Shown: positions 6,297 to 37,749 of the stretch, in pieces
How positions within the stretch are numbered: the first letter of the stretch is position 1
How the letters are laid out: the number at the start of each line of letters is the position of its first letter
Assembly: GCF_913773995.1 (NCBI RefSeq)
Contig: NZ_CAJYES010000226.1
Span: forward strand, 62,001-126,000
Origin: an uncultured Pseudacidovorax sp.
Lineage (GTDB): Bacteria > Pseudomonadota > Gammaproteobacteria > Burkholderiales > Burkholderiaceae_C
Direction: 5' to 3'
Length of the DNA: 64,000 nucleotides
Notes under the pieces: generated by a model
Databases searched by the model: none
What the model was told of the DNA's origin: nothing
Seen by the model: the letters and a program-made list of their open reading frames with translations, nothing else
Position numbers and translations under genes: made by a program

Positions 6297-7190
6297 TCAA
6301 GTCGCTGGCTTGTCGCTCAGCGCCTTCAAGTTGTCCCTCAGTTCCTTGCTCATCGGCAACCCGATGGCCTGGTTCTTCGGCGGGATCGGGCCCATGAACC
6401 ACTTGGCGTACATCTTCTCGAACTCGCCCGACTTCATGAGGCCGGTGAAGACGCCATCCACCAGTGCCTTGAACTTGGGATCGTCCTTGCGCAGCATGCA
6501 GGCATAGGGCTCCACCTGCAGGGCCTCGGCCACCACGTCCAGGCTGGCGGGGTCCTTGGCGTTGGCCTTCAGGCCGAAGAGCAGGATGTCGTCCATCGGG
6601 AAGGCCGCGGCGCGGTCGCTCTCGACCAGCAGCAGCGCGTCGGCATGGTCCTTGGCGCCGATGATGTCCATGTCCAGCTTCTTCTCCTCGTTGTACTTGC
6701 GCACGACGAGCATGTTGGTGGTGCCGGTGGTGATGGCCACCTTCTTGCCCTTGAGGTCGGCCCAGTCCTTGATGTTGGCGCTCTTCTTCACCAGCGCGCG
6801 GGTGCCGGTGTAGAAGTGGTTGATGGCGAAGGCCACGTCCTTGCCACGGGCGCTGTTGTTGGTGGTGGAGCCGCACTCCAGATCGATGGTGCCGTTGGTC
6901 AGCAGCGGGATCCGGTTGGCCGAGGTGACGGGCATCAGCGCCACCTCCAGGTTGGGCTTGTTGAGCTGCTTCTTGACCTCGGCGACGACGGCATTGCTCA
7001 GCTCCACCGCGAAGCCGATCGGCTTGCCGGGCGCCTCCAGGTAGCTGAAGGGCACCGAGGACTCACGGTAGGCCAGCGTGATCTTGTTGTCCTTCTCGAT
7101 CTTGGCGAGCGTGTCCTGGCCCTGGGCCTGGGCGGCCTGCAGGCCGGCGATGCCCAGCAGGGCAGCGGTCAGGAGGGGGGAAAGCTTCAT
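6297..7190 (-). CDS. Amino-acid ABC transporter substrate-binding protein (GltI-like)
   Basis: MKLSPLLTAALLGIAGLQAAQAQGQDTLAKIEKDNKITLAYRESSVPFSYLEAPGKPIGF…. Confidence 0.9.
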   Translation of the reverse strand: MKLSPLLTAALLGIAGLQAAQAQGQDTLAKIEKDNKITLAYRESSVPFSYLEAPGKPIGFAVELSNAVVAEVKKQLNKPNLEVALMPVTSANRIPLLTNGTIDLECGSTTNNSARGKDVAFAINHFYTGTRALVKKSANIKDWADLKGKKVAITTGTTNMLVVRKYNEEKKLDMDIIGAKDHADALLLVESDRAAAFPMDDILLFGLKANAKDPASLDVVAEALQVEPYACMLRKDDPKFKALVDGVFTGLMKSGEFEKMYAKWFMGPIPPKNQAIGLPMSKELRDNLKALSDKPAT

Positions 7191-7497
7191 GAAAGAAAAC
7201 CTTTCTGTCGAAGATGCGTGTAGAGGAAGGAAGCGAGCACGGCGGAAGAGGACGGACTCGGCGTGGACCCAAGCAAGGCGCCGGCCAGTGTGGCCGCAGG
7301 CCGGGCCTGCCGCTCATGGTTTTTTCGCGGCCGGCCATGCCCAAAGCTTATGGGGGGCTGACCGGTCCCATGAGCTGGCGGCATGGCCCTTGATGGCTTT
7401 GGCATTGGTGGCGCACGAAGGCGCTCCGTAGAGTGCGGGATAACCCTGGCAGGACTGCCTGCCCCTTCGAGCGCTGCTTCTCATCTGTCCTCACACC

Positions 7498-8736
7498 ATG
7501 CACATCTGCATCCTCGGCGCCGGCATCGTCGGCCTGGCCACCGCGTGGGAACTCCAGGCCCAGGGCCATACCGTGACGGTGGTGGATCGCGCAGCGCCCG
7601 GCAGCGGCACCAGCAGCGGCAACGGCGCGCAGCTGAGCTACTCGTATGTCGCGCCGCTGGCCGATGCCTCCATCTGGGGGCAGCTGCCGCACCTGATGTT
7701 CTCCGCCGATTCGCCATTGAAGCTGCGGCCCCAGCTGGACCCGCAGCAGTGGCGCTGGGGACTGGGCTTCATGGCCGCCTGCAACGACCGCAGCGCGACA
7801 CGCACGACGCAGGCCCTGCTGAAGCTGGCCGCTGCGAGCCGCGAGGGCTTTGAGGCCATGCGCGCGCAGCTTCAACCCGACAGCGACTTTGCCGAGGCCG
7901 GCAAGCTGGTGCTCTACGGCAGTGCCGCGGGCGTGGACGCGGCACGCCGGCAGGTGGCGCTGCAGCAATCGCTGGGCGGCGCAGCGCAGCGCGTGGTGAC
8001 GCCGGACGAAGCGGTCGCGCTGGAGCCGGCGCTGGCGGGCTATCGGAGTCGCTTTGCGGGCGCCGTCTACACCGCGAGCGAATGCGTGGCCGACTGCCTG
8101 AAGGTGTGCCAGGCGCTCGCTGCGGCCCTGCAGGCGCGCGGGGTGCAGTTGGTCACGGCCGAGGTGCAGGGCTTCGAAGCCTCGCGTGGCCGTGCAAGGG
8201 CGGTGCGTACGCGCGAGCGAGGCGCCATCGCCGCCGATGCCTTCGTGGTCGCCGTCGGCGCCGCCGCGGCGCGCTTCGGCCGCATGCTGGGCGCCTACCT
8301 GCCGGTCTATCCGCTCAAGGGCTACAGCATCACGCTGCCGGTACACGATGCGCCCGGCGCCGCGCCGGTGGTGAGCGTGACGGACACGGCGCGCAAGACG
8401 GTGTTCGCGCGCATCGGCCAGCGCCTGCGCGTGGCCGGCATGGCGGAGCTGGTGGGCGAAGACCTGCGCATTCCGCCCGCGCGCATCGCCACGCTGCAGG
8501 CGGCCACGCAGGCCGTGTTTCCGCATGCCGCGGTGGAAGCCGCCGACCCGCAGCCCTGGGCGGGCCTGCGACCGGCCACCCCCAGCGGCCTTCCGCTGGT
8601 GGGCCGTGCCGGAAGAGCGCCGGCCAACGTGCTCTTCAACGTCGGCCATGGCGCGCTGGGCTTCACGCTGGCCTTCGGCACGGCGCGCCAGGTGGCACGC
8701 CTGCTGGCCACCGGCACCGCCCTGGCACCCGCCTGA
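7498..8736 (+). CDS. dadA: D-amino acid dehydrogenase (DadA-like FAD oxidoreductase)
   Basis: MHICILGAGIVGLATAWELQAQGHTVTVVDR (Rossmann) … GAQLSYSYVAPLA … GHGALGFTLAFGTARQVA. Confidence 0.88.
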   Translation: MHICILGAGIVGLATAWELQAQGHTVTVVDRAAPGSGTSSGNGAQLSYSYVAPLADASIWGQLPHLMFSADSPLKLRPQLDPQQWRWGLGFMAACNDRSATRTTQALLKLAAASREGFEAMRAQLQPDSDFAEAGKLVLYGSAAGVDAARRQVALQQSLGGAAQRVVTPDEAVALEPALAGYRSRFAGAVYTASECVADCLKVCQALAAALQARGVQLVTAEVQGFEASRGRARAVRTRERGAIAADAFVVAVGAAAARFGRMLGAYLPVYPLKGYSITLPVHDAPGAAPVVSVTDTARKTVFARIGQRLRVAGMAELVGEDLRIPPARIATLQAATQAVFPHAAVEAADPQPWAGLRPATPSGLPLVGRAGRAPANVLFNVGHGALGFTLAFGTARQVARLLATGTALAPA

Positions 8737-8747
8737 AGCACTGGAAC

Positions 8748-8781
8748 GAACCCGCCGTGTCCGGTCGGACACGCCGGGTTC
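8748..8781. terminator. Hairpin between convergent dadA and ompW-like genes
   Basis: GAACCCGCCGTGTCCG-GT-CGGACACGCCGGGTTC, one mismatch in 16-bp arms. Confidence 0.7.
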
Positions 8782-8804
8782 AATTCACCCTTGCGAGCCT
8801 TTGA

Positions 8805-9545
8805 TCAGAAGCGGTAAGTGGCCGACAGGTAGGTCACCACCGGGTTCAGCTTGAGCCGCGCCTCGCTGGTGAGCAGTGGCAGGCCGGTCGCGGTCGTCGT
8901 GGTCAGCGTGGCCTTGGTCTTCAGCGGGATGTACGACACCGACAGCGAGATGCCCCAGTGGCGATCGAACTGCCAGGCCGCGCCCACGTTGAACACCGGC
9001 GCGAAGGAGCTGTCGAGCTTGGCCGAGGTGGCGGTGCTGAGCGGTGGGCGACCGGCCAGGCCGCCGACGGCGCTCTGCAGTCCTGGCGTCAGGCTGACGT
9101 CGCTGTACCAGACATAGGTGCCGCCCAGGCCGACGTAGGGCCGGAAGGCATCGTTGCCGTTGCCGAAGTAGTACTTGCCGAGGATGGTGGGGCTCCACTG
9201 CCGGGCCTCGCCCAGTTGGCCGACGCGGGCCAGCGTGCCTTCGCCATTAAGCTTGAACTTGGGCGGCACGCCCAGCACGCCTTCCACCGCCCAGTTCGGG
9301 TCGACGAAATAGACAGCGCTCAGGCCCAGGGTGTCGGCACTGCTGACGCCGGCGCCGGAGCCCGGCACCACGCTGGGAATGGGCGCCGTCACCGTCAGCG
9401 GCTTGCTGGAGTCGCGCGGCGAGAAATGGAGCCAGCCGGCGCCCAGTACCCAGTCGCCCGCCTGCTGGGCCAGCGCCGGCGTGGCGGCCAGGCCGCTCAG
9501 GGCGGCCAGGGTCAGAGTCTGGAGGAGTCGTTGTTGTCTCTGCAT
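8805..9545 (-). CDS. OmpW-family outer membrane protein
   Basis: …AGDWVLGAGWLHFSPRDSSKPLTV…VYFVDPNWAVEGVLGVPPKFKLNGEG…YLSATYRF C-terminal Phe. Confidence 0.88.
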   Translation of the reverse strand: MQRQQRLLQTLTLAALSGLAATPALAQQAGDWVLGAGWLHFSPRDSSKPLTVTAPIPSVVPGSGAGVSSADTLGLSAVYFVDPNWAVEGVLGVPPKFKLNGEGTLARVGQLGEARQWSPTILGKYYFGNGNDAFRPYVGLGGTYVWYSDVSLTPGLQSAVGGLAGRPPLSTATSAKLDSSFAPVFNVGAAWQFDRHWGISLSVSYIPLKTKATLTTTTATGLPLLTSEARLKLNPVVTYLSATYRF

Positions 9546-27303: not shown

Positions 27304-28107
27304 ATGCCGAATCCACCCCCTGCCGTCGCCACGGCCCCGACCGCGCCATCGGTCGGGGTTCGGCCGCGCATCCTGGTGGCGGAGGACGAGCCGGGCATCG
27401 CCGACACGGTGCAGTACGTGCTGCGCAGCGACGGTTTTGCGCCGGTGTGGTGTGCCACCGGTGGCGCAGCCCTGGCGGAATTCGCCGCCGAGCCGCCGGC
27501 GCTCGCCATCCTGGACATCGGCCTGCCCGACATGAACGGCTTCGACCTCTTCCGGCGACTGCAGGCCCTGCCGGGCGCGGCGGACGTGCCCATCGTCTTC
27601 CTCACGGCCCGCACCGACGAGATCGACCGCGTGGTGGGGCTGGAGCTGGGGGCCGACGACTACATCGCCAAGCCCTTTTCGCCGCGCGAACTGGTGGCCC
27701 GGGTGCGGGGCATCCTGCGGCGCAGCCAGCGGGCGGGTCCAGGTGCTGCGATGCCGGTGGCGACACCGGCCACGGCGCCGCAGGCACCCGCCCTGCCCTT
27801 CGTGGTCGACGACGAACGCCTGCAGATCCGCTACTACGGCCGCGTGCTCGAGCTGTCGCGCTACGAATTCGGCCTGCTGCGCCTGCTGGTGCAGCGCCCG
27901 GGCCGTGTGTTCAGCCGCGAAGAACTGCTCGACCGCGTCTGGGGCGGCGACAGCGAGAGTCTGGACCGCACTGTCGACGCCCATGTCAAGACCGTGCGCG
28001 CCAAGCTGCGGGCCATGGCGCCCGAGGTCGAGGCCATCCGCACCCACCGCGGCACCGGCTACGCGCTGCACGAAGACCTGCCGCCGTCCACGCCCCTGGT
28101 CCCATGA
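27304..28107 (+). CDS. creB: OmpR/PhoB-type response regulator (CreB-like)
   Basis: RPRILVAEDEPGIADTVQYVLRSDGFAPVW… receiver plus winged helix; overlaps the kinase gene. Confidence 0.82.
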   Translation: MPNPPPAVATAPTAPSVGVRPRILVAEDEPGIADTVQYVLRSDGFAPVWCATGGAALAEFAAEPPALAILDIGLPDMNGFDLFRRLQALPGAADVPIVFLTARTDEIDRVVGLELGADDYIAKPFSPRELVARVRGILRRSQRAGPGAAMPVATPATAPQAPALPFVVDDERLQIRYYGRVLELSRYEFGLLRLLVQRPGRVFSREELLDRVWGGDSESLDRTVDAHVKTVRAKLRAMAPEVEAIRTHRGTGYALHEDLPPSTPLVP

Positions 28108-29573
28108 TGCGTTCGCCGAGCCGGCGCACCCGCATCTTCCTGGCCGTCCTGCTGATCTACGTGGCCGGCATCACCTGGCTGCTGTGGCGGGTGGTGGGCG
28201 ACATCGATCCGCGCTACCGCGAATCGGCCGAGGAGGCGCAGGTGGAGATCGCCCAGCTCATGGCCACGCTGGTCGAGCAGGACGTGATCGCCGGCGCCAT
28301 CGACACCCGGCGGCTGGAGCCGCTGTTCCGCGCCCTCTACGCGCGTGAGTTCTCGGCCCAGATCTACAACCTGCACAAGCAGAAGGTGGAACTGCGCGTC
28401 TACGTCACCGACCGCAGCGGCCGGGTGATCTACGACTCCACCGGCCGGGCCGTCGGTGCCGACTATTCGCGCTGGATCGACGTCAGCCGGACGCTGGCCG
28501 GCAGCTACGGCGCCCGGGCCACGCGCGACGTCGAGGCCGATCCCCTCAGTTCGGTGCTCTACGTGGGCGCACCCATCCGCTGGGCCGGCGAGATCGTCGG
28601 CATGGTGGGCGTGGGCAAGCCGGTGCAGAGCTTCGGCCAGTTCGTGGAAGACGCCCGCCAGCGCGTGGTCTGGGTCGGTGCCGGTTCGGCGGCGGCGCTG
28701 CTGGTGCTGGCGCTGATCGTCTCGGTGTGGCTGGTGCGGCCCTTCGGCCTCACCGCCGACTACATCCGCTGGCTGCGCACCCAGCGGGGCTTCCATCCGC
28801 TGCGCATGCTGCGGCGCGCCGCCGCCATGGCGCGCGGCGCGTTGCAGGAGATGGGCGACGCGTTCACCGGCCGCAACTACGTGGCTGACTATGTCCAGAC
28901 CTTCACCCACGAGATCAAGAGCCCGCTTTCGGCGATCCGCGGCGCTGCCGAGCTGCTGCAGGAGGCCGGCATGCCGCCCGAGGAGCGGGAGCGCTTCCTG
29001 GCCAACATCGGCCGCGAGAGCGAACGCATCCAGCAGCTGGTGGACCGCATGATGGAGCTCACCGCGCTGGAGACGCGCCGCGTGCTCGACCAAGTGCAGC
29101 CCGTGGCTCTGGGCGCCCTACTGCGCGAGGCCGCCCAGGGCGTGGCACCGGCCGCCGCGCGCCGTGGCGTCGTGATCGACGTCCAGGGCCTGCGCGAGGA
29201 CCTGGGCGAGGTGCATGCCGAAGGCGATCCGCTGCTGCTGCGCCAGGCCGTGGGCAACCTGCTGGACAACGCCATCGATTTCTCGCCCGAGGGCGGCACC
29301 GTGCGCCTCAGCCTGCGGCTGCAGGGCCGGCGCGGCGTGGTCTCGGTGCGCGATCAGGGGCCGGGCATCCCGGCCTATGCGCAGGCACAGGTCTTCCAGA
29401 AGTTCTATTCGCTGGCGCGGCCGCACAGCCAGAAGAAGAGCACCGGCCTGGGGCTGGCCTTCGTGCGCGAGATCGCGGCGCTGCACGGCGGCAGCATCGC
29501 GCTCGGCAATGCCGAAGGCGGCGGGGCGCTGGCCACGCTCACCCTGCCGCTGATCAGCGGGCCGGTGCGCTGA
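28104..29573 (+). CDS. creC: Sensor histidine kinase (CreC-like)
   Basis: MRSPSRRTRIFLAVLLIYVAGITWLLWRVVGDIDPRYRESAEEAQVEIAQLMA… ; H-box FTHEIKSPLSAIRGAAELL. Confidence 0.85.
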   Translation: MMRSPSRRTRIFLAVLLIYVAGITWLLWRVVGDIDPRYRESAEEAQVEIAQLMATLVEQDVIAGAIDTRRLEPLFRALYAREFSAQIYNLHKQKVELRVYVTDRSGRVIYDSTGRAVGADYSRWIDVSRTLAGSYGARATRDVEADPLSSVLYVGAPIRWAGEIVGMVGVGKPVQSFGQFVEDARQRVVWVGAGSAAALLVLALIVSVWLVRPFGLTADYIRWLRTQRGFHPLRMLRRAAAMARGALQEMGDAFTGRNYVADYVQTFTHEIKSPLSAIRGAAELLQEAGMPPEERERFLANIGRESERIQQLVDRMMELTALETRRVLDQVQPVALGALLREAAQGVAPAAARRGVVIDVQGLREDLGEVHAEGDPLLLRQAVGNLLDNAIDFSPEGGTVRLSLRLQGRRGVVSVRDQGPGIPAYAQAQVFQKFYSLARPHSQKKSTGLGLAFVREIAALHGGSIALGNAEGGGALATLTLPLISGPVR

Positions 29574-30118: not shown

Positions 30119-32563
30119 TCAGCGGAACATGTTCAGGATCCGGTTGCGCTCGTCCTGTTGTGCAGGTGCGGCAGGCTGCCCGGGCTGGGCAGGCAGGACC
30201 GGAATCACCGGCTGGTTGCCCCAGGACGGCGCAGGGCCGGTCGTCGGGGCGCTGCTGTTGACCTCCACCGGCGTGATCGGCGTGAGGGCGGCTTCCACCC
30301 CGAGCGATTGCACGCCCTGGCCGTTGGCGTATTCGTCATACATCCATTCGCCGCTGGCGTTGGTGACGCCGGGCGGCACGTCCAGCTTGGCCACCGGCAC
30401 GCCCTTGAGCGCACCCTGCATGTAGCGTGTCCAGGCCGGCAGCGCCAGACTGCCGCCGGTCTCGCCGCGCACGCCGAGCTGGCGCGGCGTGTCGTAGCCG
30501 ATCCAGGCCACGCCCACGCGGGTCGGCTGGAAGCCGGCGAACCAGGCGTCGTGCGAGTCGTTGGTGGTCCCGGTCTTGCCGTACAGGTCGTCGCGCCGCA
30601 GCGTGGTGTAGGCGCGGCGGCCAGTGCCGTTCTTCACCACGCTGTTCAGCAGCGTGTCAATGACGAAGGCATTGCGCGCGGGGATCACACGCCCCGCTTC
30701 GTCGGCGGGCTTGGGCGGCGTGTCCTCCAAAACCTGATCGCGGGCATCGGTGATGCGGGCGATCAGGCGCGGTTCCACCTTCAGCCCGCCGTTGGCGAAG
30801 ACCGAGTAGGCCGTCGCCATCTGCAGCGGTGTCACCGAGCCGGCGCCCAGGCCCATGGTGAGGTAGGCCGGGTGCTTGTCGGCCGCGAAGCCGAAATGCG
30901 TGATCCATTCCTGCGCATAAGCCGGCGTGATCGCGTCCAGCACGCGGATGGTCACCACGTTCTTCGACTGCTCCAGCGCCTGCCGCAGTGTGATCGGGCC
31001 GGCGTAGCTGTTGTCGTAGTTCTTGGGCTCCCAGGGCGCGCCTCCGGTGGCCGCGGCATCGAAGGACAGCGGTGCGTCGTTGACGATGGTGGCGGGCGTG
31101 AAGCCCTTCTCCAGCGCGGCCGAGTAGATGAAGGGCTTGAAGCTGGAGCCCGGCTGGCGCCAGGCCTGCGTGGCATGGTTGAACTTGTTCTTGTTGAAGT
31201 CGAAGCCGCCCACCAGCGCCTTGATGGCGCCATCGCGCGGGTCCATGGCCACGAAGGCGCCTTCGACCTCGGGCAGCTGGGTCACTTCCCAGCTGTTCTG
31301 CGGGCCCGAACGTGCGATGCGCACGATGCTGCCGCGGCGGATGCGCAGCGGCTCGGCCGCCTTCTCCACCAGGCCACGCTGCACCGCCTGCAGGCCGCGG
31401 CCGGTGATTTCCACCGAGTCGCCGTTGGCGCGCACGGCCACCAGCTTGCGCGGGCTGGCCTCCAGCACCACCGCGGCCATCATGCCGCCGCTGTCGGGCT
31501 TGTCGGAGAGGGCATCGTCCACGGCCGTGTCCACATCGGTGCCGTCGGCAGGCAGTTCGACGAAGCCCTCGGGGCCGCGGTAGGGCTGCCGCTGCTCGTA
31601 GTCGACGATGGCTTCGTGCAGGCCGTCGTAGGCTGAACTCTGATCATTCCGTGCCACGGTCGTGTAGACCTTGAAGCCCTTGGTGTAGGTGTCGTCGCCG
31701 TACTTGGCCACCATCTGCTGGCGCACCATCTCGGCCACATAGTCGGCATGCAGCTGCGACGGATCGCCGGCATCGCGCAGCTTGAGCGGCTCCTGGCGGG
31801 CCTTGGCGGCGTCGGCCTCGCTCAGGTAGCCGGTCTCCACCATGCGGTTGATCACGTACTGCTGGCGGGCCACCGCGCGGCGCGGGTTGGCGATGGGGTT
31901 GTTGCTGCTGGGCGCCTTGGGCAGGCCGGCCAGCATGGCGGCCTCGGCCACCGTGATGTCCTGCAGCGGCTTGCCGAAGTAGGTCTGGGCGGCGGCCGCA
32001 AAGCCGTAGGCGCGGTTGCCCAGGTAGATCTGGTTCAGGTAGATCTCGAGGATCTGGTCCTTGGTCAGCTCGTCCTCAAGCCGCCAGGCCAGCAGCGCCT
32101 CCTTCAGCTTGCGGGTGAAGGTGCGCTCCGAGCTCAGGAACATGTTGCGCGCCACCTGCTGGGTGATGGTGGAAGCGCCCTGCCGCACGCCCCCATGCAG
32201 TGCGTTGGAGATCACCGCCCGCGTCAGGCCGATGGTGTCGAGTCCGCCATGCTGGTAGAAGCGCGCGTCCTCGGTGGCCAGCACCGCGTCCTTGAGCACC
32301 TTGGGGATCCTGTCGATGGGCACCAGCTGCCGGCGTTCCTCGCCGAACTCGCCGATCAGGTCGCCGTCGGCGGTGAACACGCGCAGCGGTAGCTTGGGCT
32401 GGTAGTTCTGCAGCGTGCTCACGTCGGGAAGCTGGCGCGACATCAGCGCCGCGGCAATGCCGACGATGGCGGCGCCGCAGACCACCGCGGTGGCACTGCC
32501 GATGGCGGTCCACTTGGCGGCTCGGCGCAGGCGGGGATCGGACAGACGGTCTTTGAAGGACAT
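30119..32563 (-). CDS. mrcA: Class A penicillin-binding protein 1A (GT51 + transpeptidase)
   Basis: …AVLATEDARFYQHGGLDTIGLTRAV…QGASTITQQVARNMFLSSERTFTRKLKE…; GSSFKPFIYSAAL; GKTGTTND. Confidence 0.95.
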   Translation of the reverse strand: MSFKDRLSDPRLRRAAKWTAIGSATAVVCGAAIVGIAAALMSRQLPDVSTLQNYQPKLPLRVFTADGDLIGEFGEERRQLVPIDRIPKVLKDAVLATEDARFYQHGGLDTIGLTRAVISNALHGGVRQGASTITQQVARNMFLSSERTFTRKLKEALLAWRLEDELTKDQILEIYLNQIYLGNRAYGFAAAAQTYFGKPLQDITVAEAAMLAGLPKAPSSNNPIANPRRAVARQQYVINRMVETGYLSEADAAKARQEPLKLRDAGDPSQLHADYVAEMVRQQMVAKYGDDTYTKGFKVYTTVARNDQSSAYDGLHEAIVDYEQRQPYRGPEGFVELPADGTDVDTAVDDALSDKPDSGGMMAAVVLEASPRKLVAVRANGDSVEITGRGLQAVQRGLVEKAAEPLRIRRGSIVRIARSGPQNSWEVTQLPEVEGAFVAMDPRDGAIKALVGGFDFNKNKFNHATQAWRQPGSSFKPFIYSAALEKGFTPATIVNDAPLSFDAAATGGAPWEPKNYDNSYAGPITLRQALEQSKNVVTIRVLDAITPAYAQEWITHFGFAADKHPAYLTMGLGAGSVTPLQMATAYSVFANGGLKVEPRLIARITDARDQVLEDTPPKPADEAGRVIPARNAFVIDTLLNSVVKNGTGRRAYTTLRRDDLYGKTGTTNDSHDAWFAGFQPTRVGVAWIGYDTPRQLGVRGETGGSLALPAWTRYMQGALKGVPVAKLDVPPGVTNASGEWMYDEYANGQGVQSLGVEAALTPITPVEVNSSAPTTGPAPSWGNQPVIPVLPAQPGQPAAPAQQDERNRILNMFR

Positions 32564-32799
32564 GGGAAAGAAACAGGAAGAGGTCGGCCGGCGGGAGGGA
32601 AGGCGAGCATGCCCGCCCGCCGGAAGGCCGCCGTAACAAGGCGTTGCCTGCACGCCGGCAGGCGCGCAAGCCTCGCGCTGTCACGGCAGCCACGCTGTCG
32701 GACGGCGGCAGCATTCTCGGTGCGGCGGGTGCCACGCCGTCGGCAGGGCCATCGTCGCCGCGGATCTTGAAAGGAGGCTGAAGGGCGCTGCACACGGAC

Positions 32800-32815
32800 T
32801 TCACACAAGCTTCAC
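32800..32815 (+). promoter_or_regulatory. Candidate CreB-binding cre-tag upstream of the VIT/exosortase cassette
   Basis: TTCAC-ACAAGC-TTCAC, perfect match to TTCACnnnnnnTTCAC. Confidence 0.75.
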
Positions 32816-32907: not shown

Positions 32908-34974
32908 ATGAATCCAAACTTGTCCTGGCGCCGCCGGCGCAGTCCCGAAGCCCGCGGCTGCGGCCTGTGGGCGTTCACGGCGCTGATGGCGCTGGCCGCC
33001 TTTGCGTTGCTGGTGTGCCGGCCCGTCCTTGCACAGGAAACTGGCAACGATGCCACCGCGAGCCCCTATCTGGTGGTGCAAAGCGACACCCCCGGCACCG
33101 ACCGCCTGCCCCTCAAGCGAACCGACGTCGACGTGCGCATCGCCGGGGTCATCGCCGACGTGCGGGTGACGCAGACCTACCGCAACGAAGGCGAGCGCAC
33201 GCTGGAGGCGCGCTACGTCTTTCCCGGCTCCACGCGCGCGGCCGTAGGGGGCATGAACGTGCGCATTGCCGACCGGCTGATCACGGCGCAGATCCGCGAG
33301 AAGCAGCAGGCGCGGCTGGAATACCAGGAAGCGAAGCAGGCCGGCCAGACGGCTGCGCTGCTCGAGGCCGAGCGGCCCAACGTCTTCCAGATGAACGTGG
33401 CCAACATCCGGCCGGGCGACGAGGTGCGTGCGGAACTGCGCTACAGCGAGCTGCTTCTGCCGCAGTCGGGTCGCTACCAGTTCGTCTACCCCACCGTGGT
33501 GGGCCCGCGCTACTCGGGCACGGATGGAGGCGGGGGACCTTGGAGCGCCCAGCCCACGCTGCCTGCCGGCACGGCCAGTGCCGCGGCCTTCTCGCTCAAG
33601 CTGAGCCTCGATGCGCCGCTGCCGCTGGCGGACATCCGTTCGTCCAGCCATGCGCTGGCCATCCAACCCGGGCCCGACGACCGGCATGCCACCCTCACCT
33701 TGCGCGAGGATGGCCGGCCGCTGGCCAACCGCGACTTCGTGCTCGACTTCGCGCTCGCCGGTGAGCGCATCCAGTCGGGCCTGATGCTCTATCCGGGCAG
33801 CGGGGCGGATGCGGAGAACTTCTTCCTCGCGATGGTCGAGCCGCCGCGCGCCGTGGCCGCCGAGCGCATCGTGCCGCGCGACTACCTTTTCGTGGTGGAC
33901 ATCTCCGGCTCCATGCACGGCTTTCCGCTGGACACGGCCCGCGCTCTGCTCGAGCGGCTGATCGGCGGCCTGCGGCCCAGCGACACCTTCAACGTGATGC
34001 TGTTCGCTGGCAGCAACCGCATGTTGTCGGCCCGGTCGGTGCCGGCCACGCGGGCCAACATCGAGCGGGCGCTCAGGACGCTCACCGACATCCAGGGCGG
34101 CGGCAGCACCGAGCTGATCCCGGCCTTGCGCCAGGCCTATGCCCAGCCCAAGGCCGAGGGGGTCTCGCGCAGCATCGTGGTGGTGACCGACGGCTACGTC
34201 ACCGTGGAGCGCGAGGCCTTCGCGCTGGTGCGCGAGCATCTGGACCAGGCCAACCTGTTCGCTTTCGGCATCGGCTCCTCGGTCAACCGGCACCTGATCG
34301 AGGGTCTGGCTCGCGCCGGCCGTGGCGAGCCCTTCGTCATCACCGATGAACGGCAGGCACCCGAGCAGGCGGCACGCTTCCGTCGCATGGCGGAGTCGCC
34401 CGTGCTCACCGGCCTGAAGGCGCGCTTCGAGGGCCTGGAGGTGTACGACGTGGAGTCGGCCCATCTGCCCGATGTGCTGGGCGAGCGGCCCGTGGTGCTG
34501 TTCGGCAAGTGGCGCGGTGCGCTGCGCGGCCAGCTGGTGGTGGAAGGCCGCAGCGCCGAAGGCGCGTGGCGCCAGGTGCTGCCGGTGGACGCAGGCAGCC
34601 TGGCCCCGCAGGCCACGGCCCTGCGCGCCCTGTGGGCCCGCGACCGCATCGCGGCACTGGACGACCAGGAGGGCCTGGAAGGCAGCGGCCAGCAGCGCGA
34701 AGCCATCACCGCGCTGGGGCTCAAGTACAGCCTGCTCACGGCCTACACCAGCTTCGTCGCCGTCGACCAGGTGGTGCGCGGTGCGGGCGATGCCGGCACG
34801 ACGGTCGATCAGCCTCAAGCCTTGCCCGAAGGTGTGAGCGAACTCGCGCTGGGCATGCCGGTGCCGGCCACGCCCGAGCCCGAGACGCTGGGCGCCGTGG
34901 CCGTGGCGCTGGGCATGCTCGCCATGCTGCGTCGCCGGTTGTGCCGGCACGATGCGCGGCGGATGACCGCCTGA
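32908..34974 (+). CDS. VIT + vWA domain protein with PEP-CTERM-like C-terminal sorting signal
   Basis: VIT region …DVDVRIAGVIADVRVTQTYRNEGERTLEARYVFPGSTRAAVGGMNVRIADR…; MIDAS DISGSMHGFPL; C-term PATPEPETLGAVAVALGMLAMLRRRLCRHDARRMTA. Confidence 0.88.
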   Translation: MNPNLSWRRRRSPEARGCGLWAFTALMALAAFALLVCRPVLAQETGNDATASPYLVVQSDTPGTDRLPLKRTDVDVRIAGVIADVRVTQTYRNEGERTLEARYVFPGSTRAAVGGMNVRIADRLITAQIREKQQARLEYQEAKQAGQTAALLEAERPNVFQMNVANIRPGDEVRAELRYSELLLPQSGRYQFVYPTVVGPRYSGTDGGGGPWSAQPTLPAGTASAAAFSLKLSLDAPLPLADIRSSSHALAIQPGPDDRHATLTLREDGRPLANRDFVLDFALAGERIQSGLMLYPGSGADAENFFLAMVEPPRAVAAERIVPRDYLFVVDISGSMHGFPLDTARALLERLIGGLRPSDTFNVMLFAGSNRMLSARSVPATRANIERALRTLTDIQGGGSTELIPALRQAYAQPKAEGVSRSIVVVTDGYVTVEREAFALVREHLDQANLFAFGIGSSVNRHLIEGLARAGRGEPFVITDERQAPEQAARFRRMAESPVLTGLKARFEGLEVYDVESAHLPDVLGERPVVLFGKWRGALRGQLVVEGRSAEGAWRQVLPVDAGSLAPQATALRALWARDRIAALDDQEGLEGSGQQREAITALGLKYSLLTAYTSFVAVDQVVRGAGDAGTTVDQPQALPEGVSELALGMPVPATPEPETLGAVAVALGMLAMLRRRLCRHDARRMTA

Positions 34975-34991
34975 TCGAGGGAGCAACGCCA

Positions 34992-35876
34992 ATGAACCTC
35001 GTCGATTGGGCGGGCCGCCATCCCCGCAGCCTGGAGGCGGCGATCCGTCTCGACCGCCTGCCGCCCGTGTTGTGGCTGGTCGCCACCGCCCTGGTGCTCT
35101 GGCCCACCTGGCTCTGGATGGGCGCCCGCATGCTGGACCGTTCGGACGATCCACTGGGCCTGCTGGCGTTGGGTGCGCTGTGCCTGTTCGCGTGGCGGTC
35201 CCGGAGGGCGCTGCGCGCATCGCCGCGGCTGGGCCTCTTGTCGGTGGCTGCGCTGGGTGTGCTGGCGTCTTCACTACTGCGGGCCGGCAGCGTGCTGCCA
35301 CCGCTGGCCACCGGCCTGCTGGCCGTGCTGGCCATGGCCTGCGCGCTGCTCGCCTTCCTGCCGATTGGGCAGCCCGCTTTGCCGGTGCTGGGCCTCGCGG
35401 TGCTGGCGTTGCCGCTGCTGTCCTCGTTGCAGTTCTATGCGGGTTATCCGCTGCGGCTGGTCACGGCCGAGGCGGCGCGTTGGCTGTTGGCACCCTTCTT
35501 CGTGGTCGAGCGCGCTGGCAGCAGCCTGTGGATCGATGGCCGGCTGGTGATCGTGGATGCGCCCTGCTCCGGCGTGCAGATGGTGTGGATGGGGTACTTC
35601 ACCGCCTGCGTGGTGGCGCTGTTCATGACTCGGATGGACGACCGCGCCTTCCTGCGCCGGCTGCCCGTGGTCGGGCTGGTGGTGCTGGGCGGCAATGTGC
35701 TGCGCAATGCCCTGCTGGTGGGCCTGGAGGGCGCCGGCCATGCGCCCGGGCCGCTGCTGCATCAGGTTCTGGGGCTGGCGCTGCTGGCCGTGGTGTGTGG
35801 CGCGATCGGGCGGCGCATGCTGCGCACGGCACCGCAAGACCTGGGCCTCGGAAAGGACCGCCATGCGTTGGCCTGA
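34992..35876 (+). CDS. Exosortase (exosortase/archaeosortase family)
   Basis: Multi-TM protein with conserved …LWIDGRLVIVDAPCSGVQMVWMGYF…GGNVLRNALLVGLEGAGHAPGPLLHQVLG… (Cys/Arg/His catalytic pattern). Confidence 0.88.
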   Translation: MNLVDWAGRHPRSLEAAIRLDRLPPVLWLVATALVLWPTWLWMGARMLDRSDDPLGLLALGALCLFAWRSRRALRASPRLGLLSVAALGVLASSLLRAGSVLPPLATGLLAVLAMACALLAFLPIGQPALPVLGLAVLALPLLSSLQFYAGYPLRLVTAEAARWLLAPFFVVERAGSSLWIDGRLVIVDAPCSGVQMVWMGYFTACVVALFMTRMDDRAFLRRLPVVGLVVLGGNVLRNALLVGLEGAGHAPGPLLHQVLGLALLAVVCGAIGRRMLRTAPQDLGLGKDRHALA

Positions 35877-36441
35877 CGTCTTCGCGCCTTCGCCCTGGCG
35901 CAACCACTTCGCGCACCGTGTGCTGCACAAGCTGGCGTTCGCATTCGCGCTGGCGGCCGGCCTGTTGGCCAGTTTCTGGCCGCTGGGGCAGGACGGCCTT
36001 GCGTCCTCGTCCTCGTACGCAGCCTCGCCCGAGTGGCCCCCCACCTGGGACGGCGCGCCGTTGAGGCCGCAGGCGCTCGGCGAGGTGGAAGCCCGCTTCG
36101 CCCGGCACTTTCCCGGCCACATCGCCCGCTTCACCGATGGCCGGCGGGTGCTGGTGATGCGGCAGGTCGAGCGTGCCACGCGCCTGCTGCATCCGGCCGA
36201 GGACTGCTGGCGCGCGCTGGGCTATCGCGTCGTTCAGGCCCGGCTCGAACACGACGCACGCGGCCGGCTGTGGCGCTGCTTCCACGCCGAGCGCACAGGC
36301 AGCGACACCCAGCGCGTGTGCGAGCGCATCGAGGATGCCGCCGGCCAATCTTTCACCGACACTTCCGCCTGGTACTGGGCCAGCTGGCGCGCGAGCGCCG
36401 CCGGGCCCTGGACGGCGGTGACCGTGGTCTCGCCGCCATGA
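35863..36441 (+). CDS. Exosortase-associated EpsI-like protein (divergent)
   Basis: Single N-terminal TM; …LLHPAEDCWRALGYRV… resembles the EpsI H-x-PE-x-C-x-x-x-x-G motif; overlaps the exosortase 3' end by 14 nt. Confidence 0.6.
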   Translation: MRWPDVFAPSPWRNHFAHRVLHKLAFAFALAAGLLASFWPLGQDGLASSSSYAASPEWPPTWDGAPLRPQALGEVEARFARHFPGHIARFTDGRRVLVMRQVERATRLLHPAEDCWRALGYRVVQARLEHDARGRLWRCFHAERTGSDTQRVCERIEDAAGQSFTDTSAWYWASWRASAAGPWTAVTVVSPP

Positions 36442-36468
36442 ACGACACGACAGACAACGGGACGCGAT

Positions 36469-37749
36469 GTGAACAAGGGGCTGCGTTTGCTGCTGTGGGG
36501 CCTGCTGGCCCTGCTGCTGACGGCAGCGGTGGCGGCCGTGGCGGTGGTGCGCATCGCGCTCGCCCCGGCCAAGGACGAATGGGCGGTGGACTGGCGCGTG
36601 GGTCCGTTCACGGTGCCCGTGGGCGTGCCCACGGTGCTGCGACTGGCCACCTCGCCCTGGATCGCACCGCGGCTGGACGGCCGCCGGCTGCAGACGGCGC
36701 AGGGGCCGATCGACCTGCGCTGGGACGCGCCGCGCGAGCAGCTGGCCCTGCGCTGCGCACCCTGCCGCATCGGCCTGACCGCCATGGGCTCACAGCCTCT
36801 TCAGCTGACCGAACTTCGCTTGACCGCGCGTCGCGAGGTGGACGTGCTGCGCGGCGAGGTCGACGCGGTGCCGACCAGCGCGAGCACCGAAGGCCTGCAC
36901 GGCCGCTGGCAGGGCCGGCTCACGCAGCGTGACCTGCACCTCGACGCCAGCTTCGACGAGGCGCCCATCGCCCGCTGGTACGCCGTGCTGGCGGCCGGCA
37001 TGCCCGAGCTGGAACGCGCCCGCATCGGCGGCACGGCGTCTGGCCGCCTGCAGGTGCAGCTGCCCTCGGGCACGCTGGGGCTGCACCCGCGCATCAGCGG
37101 CTTCAGCGTCGAGGGCCTGGGCACCGAGGCGCTGCTGAACGCGCGCAGCCAGTGCGGCCCGGCCGCCAACCTGAAGGCCGACAGTTGGCTGGCCCGTGCC
37201 GTCGTCGCGGCGGAGGACCAGCGCTTCTTCCAGCATCCGGGCTTCGACCTGATCGAGTTGCAGGCCGCCTTCGACCGCAACCAGAGCAAGGGCGCTGTCG
37301 AGCGCGGCGGCAGCACGCTCACGCAGCAGCTGGCCAAGGTGCTGGTGACCGGCAGCGAGCGTAGTCTGCAGCGCAAGCTGCGCGAGCTGCTCTATGCGGT
37401 GGATATGGAGCAGCAGCTGGGCAAGGCCCGCATCCTGCAGCTGTACCTGGACCATGCGCCCTGGGGCCGCGTCTGCGGCGCCGAGGCAGCGGCGCGTTTC
37501 TACTTCGGTCGTCCGGCGGCGCGGCTGGAGCCGGCCCAGGCGGTATGGCTGGCGGCCATGCTGCATGCACCGAGCGCCGCCGCCGAACGCTGGCAGCGTG
37601 AGGGGGGCCTCGACCCGCAGCGCGTCCAGTGGGTGGCCGAGGGCATCCGCGGCATCAGCCGCGGCCAGCGCGAGGCGCTGTTGCGCAGCGTGGCACAGGC
37701 GCGTTACCCCTGGCCGGGCGCCCCGTTGCCCTCATCGCCCGCTCGCTGA
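36469..37749 (+). CDS. GT51 monofunctional transglycosylase-domain protein with long atypical N-terminal region
   Basis: GTG start; TM; …WLARAVVAAEDQRFFQHPGFDLIELQAAFDRNQSKGAVERGGSTLTQQLAKVLVTGSERSLQRKLRELLYAVDMEQQLGKARILQLYLDHAPWG…. Confidence 0.88.
   Translation: MNKGLRLLLWGLLALLLTAAVAAVAVVRIALAPAKDEWAVDWRVGPFTVPVGVPTVLRLATSPWIAPRLDGRRLQTAQGPIDLRWDAPREQLALRCAPCRIGLTAMGSQPLQLTELRLTARREVDVLRGEVDAVPTSASTEGLHGRWQGRLTQRDLHLDASFDEAPIARWYAVLAAGMPELERARIGGTASGRLQVQLPSGTLGLHPRISGFSVEGLGTEALLNARSQCGPAANLKADSWLARAVVAAEDQRFFQHPGFDLIELQAAFDRNQSKGAVERGGSTLTQQLAKVLVTGSERSLQRKLRELLYAVDMEQQLGKARILQLYLDHAPWGRVCGAEAAARFYFGRPAARLEPAQAVWLAAMLHAPSAAAERWQREGGLDPQRVQWVAEGIRGISRGQREALLRSVAQARYPWPGAPLPSSPAR

Follow-up and report, generated by a model that had tools for sequence, protein, structure and literature searches.

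Most exosortase systems serve many substrates that are dispersed over the genome, and they are located among exopolysaccharide genes. In the proteobacterial dedicated sortase system, a VIT/vWA target is associated with one dedicated enzyme and an adjacent two-component pair, and the XrtN system likewise couples a VIT target with an exosortase. The XrtA/EpsH-EpsI exopolysaccharide systems use a PEP-CTERM substrate and an exosortase whose gene precedes that of an EpsI-type protein or is fused with it (PMC1569441). The locus described here recalls each of these systems in part. It lies in a 64,000-nucleotide stretch of a Comamonadaceae-type genome (hereafter the window), where four consecutive genes at positions 32908-37749 of the + strand encode a VIT/vWA protein, an exosortase, an EpsI-like protein and a GT51-like protein. 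Together they probably constitute a dedicated, single-substrate exosortase Q (XrtQ) cassette, a member of the CreBC regulon that acts at the cell wall rather than on exopolysaccharide. The enzyme family is known by name; CreBC control and the partnership with the EpsI-like and GT51-like proteins are drawn from the present data, and the new points are the regulatory link to CreBC and the altered GT51 partner.

The exosortase Q cassette and its putative substrate

All four genes are found with the ends and in the order that the original prediction, made from the letters of the DNA alone, had given them, and the order VIT-XrtQ-EpsI-GT51 is held nearly everywhere in 72 loci of relatives, with contig ends accounting for most exceptions, so that the layout cannot be attributed to chance. 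The exosortase (34992..35876, + strand, 294 residues) matches the exosortase Q model NF012182 with 363.1 bits against a cut-off of 270, covering model positions 1-255 of 256, and Exosortase_EpsH (PF09721) at 1.5e-21, which passes the Pfam cut-off. Whether this subfamily already had a name had been left open, and the search of exosortase subfamily models supplied one; the models for exosortase N (XrtN, TIGR04476; 39 bits, cut-off 200) and exosortase T (XrtT, NF033770; 32 bits, cut-off 250) give scores far too low for membership. The predicted Cys/Arg/His pattern is borne out, with C192, R238 and H257 in the window protein and the same triad in 71 of 72 relatives. The nearest counterpart of the enzyme is a Pseudacidovorax protein with 94% identity, and literature searches on exosortase Q or XrtQ returned no paper.

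The target gene (32908..34974, + strand) encodes a protein of 688 residues with a signal-peptide-like N-terminus, a VIT domain (~33112-33444; Pfam VIT, 1.3e-34), a vWA domain (~33886-34356; Pfam VWA, 1.3e-13) and a C-terminal sorting signal. Both domains pass their Pfam cut-offs, and the tripartite end that had been read as PEP-CTERM-like is recovered at 34870..34938 of the + strand, where VPATPEPETLG is followed by a hydrophobic stretch forming a transmembrane segment and by RRR. The PEP-CTERM model, only 24 residues long and with a cut-off of 16 bits, gives this signal 21.1 bits in the whole-genome scan and 15.0 bits, just under the cut-off, when the protein is scanned singly. Among the VIT relatives, P[SGAT][TAS]PE[PA] is present in 64 of 69, the other five being near matches. 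The target model of the dedicated sortase system (TIGR03788) is matched at 403.2 bits, under its cut-off of 551.65, and that of the XrtN system (TIGR04477) gives no match to the window protein.

The dedication of enzyme to substrate can be judged across the whole genome (5.37 Mb, 99.99% complete). XrtQ is its sole exosortase, and only two PEP-CTERM matches exceed the cut-off, one of them the VIT protein; the other, at 9352-9402 of the window, lies on the strand opposite an OmpW-like gene (8805-9545). Three further matches lie below the cut-off. Two that were examined fall inside an open reading frame (ORF) for an 827-residue flavoprotein-like product and in a small ORF with several transmembrane segments, neither of them at a C-terminus, and the third, in locus L006, reaches 12.6 bits. 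The VIT protein is thus the only credible PEP-CTERM protein of the genome, the outcome that the original prediction had named as support for a one-substrate system. In 27 of the 60 other XrtQ genomes, XrtQ is likewise the only exosortase match, and most of the remainder carry a second, XrtA-like enzyme elsewhere. The original prediction had named as refutations many PEP-CTERM substrates with a canonical XrtA/EPS locus elsewhere that this enzyme serves, or missing gene linkage in relatives. The linkage in relatives goes against the latter; as to the former, roughly one in two of the other XrtQ genomes has an XrtA-like exosortase elsewhere, but as a separate enzyme, and the window genome has none.

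Of the 401 genomes of the family, 64 have exosortase Q, and they represent 27 of 141 genera; outside the family, a single weak relative was detected in a set of 274 class-wide genomes that includes a few of the same family. The proposed co-occurrence of the four genes is near perfect. Strong VIT relatives, defined as scoring above 260 bits with TIGR03788, were found in 61 XrtQ genomes and in a single genome without detected XrtQ, whose contig stops after the VIT gene. The EpsI-like family was found in 39 XrtQ genomes and in no other among 251 genomes. The GT51 N-terminal domain is present in 38 XrtQ genomes, G130 being the only other genome to have it. One seeming loss of the VIT gene, in genome G018, is a run of N. 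At another locus (L079 of genome G028, 8746-9218), creBC and a CreB box accompany a truncated exosortase Q remnant, an apparent case of cassette decay. A genome of another family (G558; locus L118, 1519-7335) has genes for a CreB-like pair that point away from those for a VIT/vWA protein with a PEP-CTERM signal, an exosortase resembling XrtQ (139 bits) and an EpsI-like protein, and no GT51 gene was seen alongside. Judged by its genes, this cassette is another instance in which two-component genes accompany a VIT target and a putative dedicated processing enzyme. Its target matches TIGR04477 at 105 bits (under the cut-off of 250), and the cassette may be intermediate between the XrtQ and XrtN systems.

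The start of the EpsI-like gene (35863..36441, + strand, 192 residues) overlaps the exosortase stop at 35876. Its product has one predicted N-terminal membrane helix (residues 12-45), followed by a folded domain of periplasmic type (mean predicted local distance difference test score, pLDDT, 80.6), and carries the motif PTRxLHPAxDCxRxLGY, in which H-P-A-x-D-C is invariant among relatives. The motif and the single helix noted in the original prediction are therefore present; the kinship is with the C-terminal region of exosortase T (NF033770), matched by all 22 relatives with a best value of 1.8e-13, and not with the EpsI family models, of which DUF3485 (PF11984) is matched by one of the 22 at E 0.12 and TIGR02914 by none. 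A fold search of the predicted structure against the PDB gave no significant match (best E 0.03, template modelling score 0.32), and a sequence search for a solved relative gave nothing significant. In nine loci, ORF length and coordinates place the EpsI-like protein and XrtQ in a single reading frame; the apparent fusion in 70 loci is spurious, fused members having been included when the model was built. Since EpsI is likewise fused to some EpsH proteins (PMC1569441), the EpsI-like protein is most naturally taken as a putative partner subunit of the exosortase.

The last gene (36469..37749, + strand) encodes a GT51-like protein of 426 residues, comprising a membrane helix, a beta-rich region of ~185 residues (~40-225) with an invariant CxxC, and the GT51 domain (~37183-37587; Pfam Transgly, 1.9e-43, which passes the Pfam cut-off). 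Four cysteines, at residues 96, 99, 229 and 336 and spread over the beta-rich region and the GT51 domain, are near-invariant, the CxxC reading C-A-P-C. The beta-rich region has no Pfam match, and in a structure model of poor quality (mean pLDDT 64.7) only the GT51 domain matched known structures, the fold comparison giving 35% identity with the peptidoglycan glycosyltransferase of Aquifex. The catalytic Glu of motif I is present in 67 of 67 relatives and motifs I-III are strictly conserved. The Glu of motif IV, the second catalytic Glu of the family, is retained in only two of the 67 relatives and replaced in the other 65, mostly by Gln; in the window protein, Q324 aligns with this Glu of the Aquifex enzyme (3nb6/2oqo). 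The GT51 assignment of the original prediction thus stands, and the wide replacement of the second Glu casts doubt on the label of peptidoglycan polymerase. The GT51-like protein may be able to bind a lipid-linked glycan and yet lack normal polymerase activity; alternatively, its activity may have changed.

The operon promoter and its predicted CreBC regulators

The two-component pair that adjoins the cassette consists of creB (27304..28107, + strand), whose product scores 306.7 bits with the response regulator model NF008296 (cut-off 273), and creC (28104..29573, + strand, start codon inferred), whose product scores 556.2 bits with the sensor histidine kinase model NF008312 (cut-off 356). The parallel that had been drawn with the two-component pair of the dedicated sortase system does not hold for these genes, since the corresponding kinase (TIGR03785, 96.6 bits against 612.2) and regulator (TIGR03787, 131.9 bits against 335.7) models score well below their cut-offs. 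The gene for PBP1A, the other upstream neighbour in the original prediction, is also present (30119-32653); it is on the - strand, divergent from the VIT operon, and it can be ruled out as a cassette member, occupying this place only in the clade of the window and one other.

In the intergenic region shared by the PBP1A gene and the operon, 5' of the VIT gene, the sequence TTCACACAAGCTTCAC at 32800..32815 (+ strand) is a perfect cre/blr tag, that is, an exact instance of the motif TTCACN6TTCAC defined in PMC4689548 and PMC3660660; the original prediction had overlooked it. Of 66 loci, 58 have an exact tag within 400 bp 5' of the VIT gene; the corresponding figure for dinucleotide shuffles is 2 of 3300 (0.06%), and none of 226 control regions upstream of the XrtQ, EpsI, GT51 and creB genes contains one. 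The whole genome holds seven exact copies, counting both strands, the other six showing no evident pattern. The tag is also retained where creBC lies outside the fetched locus (for example in L062, L051 and L054), CreC being present in those genomes. A second, degenerate CTTC repeat pair often stands ~30 bp 3' of the CreB box (for example in L061, L062 and L047).

Regulators and cassette also travel together, CreC being found in 40 of 41 XrtQ genomes compared with 62 of 210 others. The pattern of creD, the usual output of CreBC, runs the other way: it is present in 16 of 40 XrtQ genomes and in 39 of 40 CreC genomes without XrtQ, and it is absent from the window genome. Genomes with both creD and XrtQ often have creD transcribed away from the VIT operon, and in several genomes the two lie side by side in this orientation. 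Because the tag is conserved and scarce in controls and genome, and because of the co-occurrence of CreC with XrtQ and the creD pattern, the operon is strongly predicted to be a member of the CreBC regulon. That regulon would gain a new kind of output, and the cassette may be part of the reason that many relatives with CreBC lack creD. Literature searches for exosortases with CreBC, and for exosortases with a peptidoglycan glycosyltransferase, found no relevant paper, and the wiring of a whole cassette to a cell-wall sensor appears to be undescribed.

A candidate mechanism and its rivals

In Pseudomonas and Aeromonas, CreBC/BlrAB responds to peptidoglycan stress, and in E. coli it responds to metabolic cues (PMC4689548). 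In the mechanism proposed here, a metabolic or peptidoglycan-stress cue would be sensed by CreC, and phosphorylated CreB would bind the box at 32800-32815 and switch on the operon. The VIT/vWA protein would be exported by Sec, its C-terminal helix keeping it in the inner membrane until XrtQ, presumably with its EpsI-like partner, cut near VPxTPEP by means of the Cys, and the new C-terminus would be passed to an acceptor. The GT51-like protein would probably bind or handle a lipid-linked cell-wall glycan that, speculatively, is this acceptor or is joined to it. The target would then end in the cell wall or envelope, not in exopolysaccharide. The idea of a cell-wall precursor as acceptor, with the GT51-like protein handling it, is speculative and arises from the GT51 partner and from the peptidoglycan-stress response of CreBC. 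In its most specific form, in which XrtQ attaches its one substrate to peptidoglycan or to a lipid-linked precursor under CreBC signalling and a retuned GT51-like protein presents the acceptor, it is to be regarded as unlikely and tentative. If true, it would amount to a Gram-negative functional counterpart of sortase anchoring, made of unrelated parts.

Several observations weigh against a cell-wall cassette of four interdependent parts. The compared genomes are related, so that the co-occurrence counts are not independent and Fisher values overstate their significance, wide as the spread over 27 genera is. In genome G036 (locus L057), the VIT, XrtQ and EpsI-like genes are kept and the GT51 gene is missing; a convergent reverse-transcriptase-like ORF occupies its expected position (6540-7985), and GT51 matches in that locus were discarded as out-of-frame translation. 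Conversely, genome G130 (locus L117, 7800-11588) has creB-creC, a CreB box (9962) and a GT51-like gene alone, with the motif IV Glu of its product intact and no VIT, exosortase or EpsI-like gene detected in the locus. The GT51 gene and the exosortase are therefore separable, their link being strong and not obligatory. Furthermore, the altered motif IV may signify a dead enzyme, and the cue sensed by CreC in this group may be either metabolic or peptidoglycan stress. An unlikely alternative keeps the dedicated cassette under CreBC and has a polysaccharide, a lipid or another molecule as acceptor, the GT51-like protein being either a pseudoenzyme or an independent output of CreBC that only shares the promoter. 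The loss of the motif IV Glu, the two genomes just described, the cassette of G558 without an adjacent GT51 gene, and the tracking of exopolysaccharide genes by PEP-CTERM systems elsewhere (PMC1569441) all speak for it. However, strict conservation of motifs I-III would be unusual for a dead gene, and the almost complete confinement of the GT51 N-terminal domain to XrtQ genomes (38 of 39) also argues against this alternative.

Two further explanations concern the exosortase itself, and both appear very unlikely. The enzyme might merely release its target from the membrane without transfer, leaving the VIT/vWA protein as a soluble periplasmic or secreted product under CreBC control. The bacterial exosortase acceptor is indeed termed unknown in PMC1569441, but the same paper argues that conservation of Cys, Arg and His parallels transpeptidation of the sortase type, and a conserved EpsI-like partner together with a GT51-like protein suggests more than hydrolysis. 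XrtQ might also be an ordinary multi-substrate exosortase whose further PEP-CTERM substrates were missed, a short model easily losing weak matches and four further weak ones having been found. Against this stand the antisense position of the second match above the cut-off and the internal positions of the two weaker ones examined, as well as the VPxTPEP motif and the linkage to one VIT gene, which hold across 27 genera. A dedicated cassette under CreBC that acts at the cell wall is thus the reading preferred here, built on the observed gene content, linkage, co-occurrence, catalytic residues and CreB box. With one substrate, one enzyme, one inducer and one candidate glycan pathway, the cassette offers a compact test case for the acceptor of exosortases.

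Comparison with known systems

Among exosortase systems, those of the XrtA/EpsH-EpsI type resemble the window in their PEP-CTERM substrate and in the juxtaposition or fusion of exosortase and EpsI-type protein. The window cassette differs from them in having one substrate, in being without exopolysaccharide genes, and in having a CreB box instead of PrsK/PrsR sigma-54 control (PMC1569441). Exosortase T has a C-terminal region homologous to the stand-alone EpsI-like protein, which is a separate gene in most loci of the window type and fused to XrtQ in the nine mentioned above. The XrtN system shares the combination of a VIT target and an exosortase, but neither its enzyme model nor its target model accommodates the window proteins. 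The proteobacterial dedicated sortase system has a homologous VIT/vWA target, one dedicated enzyme and an adjacent two-component pair; the window, in contrast, has an exosortase and not a sortase, a PEP-CTERM signal, and CreBC in place of a dedicated pair, and every dedicated-sortase model scores under its cut-off for the window proteins. With the CreBC/BlrAB regulon, which includes creD and beta-lactamases, the window operon shares both the regulators and the promoter box, and in the window genome, where creD is lacking, it would be a new kind of target for them.

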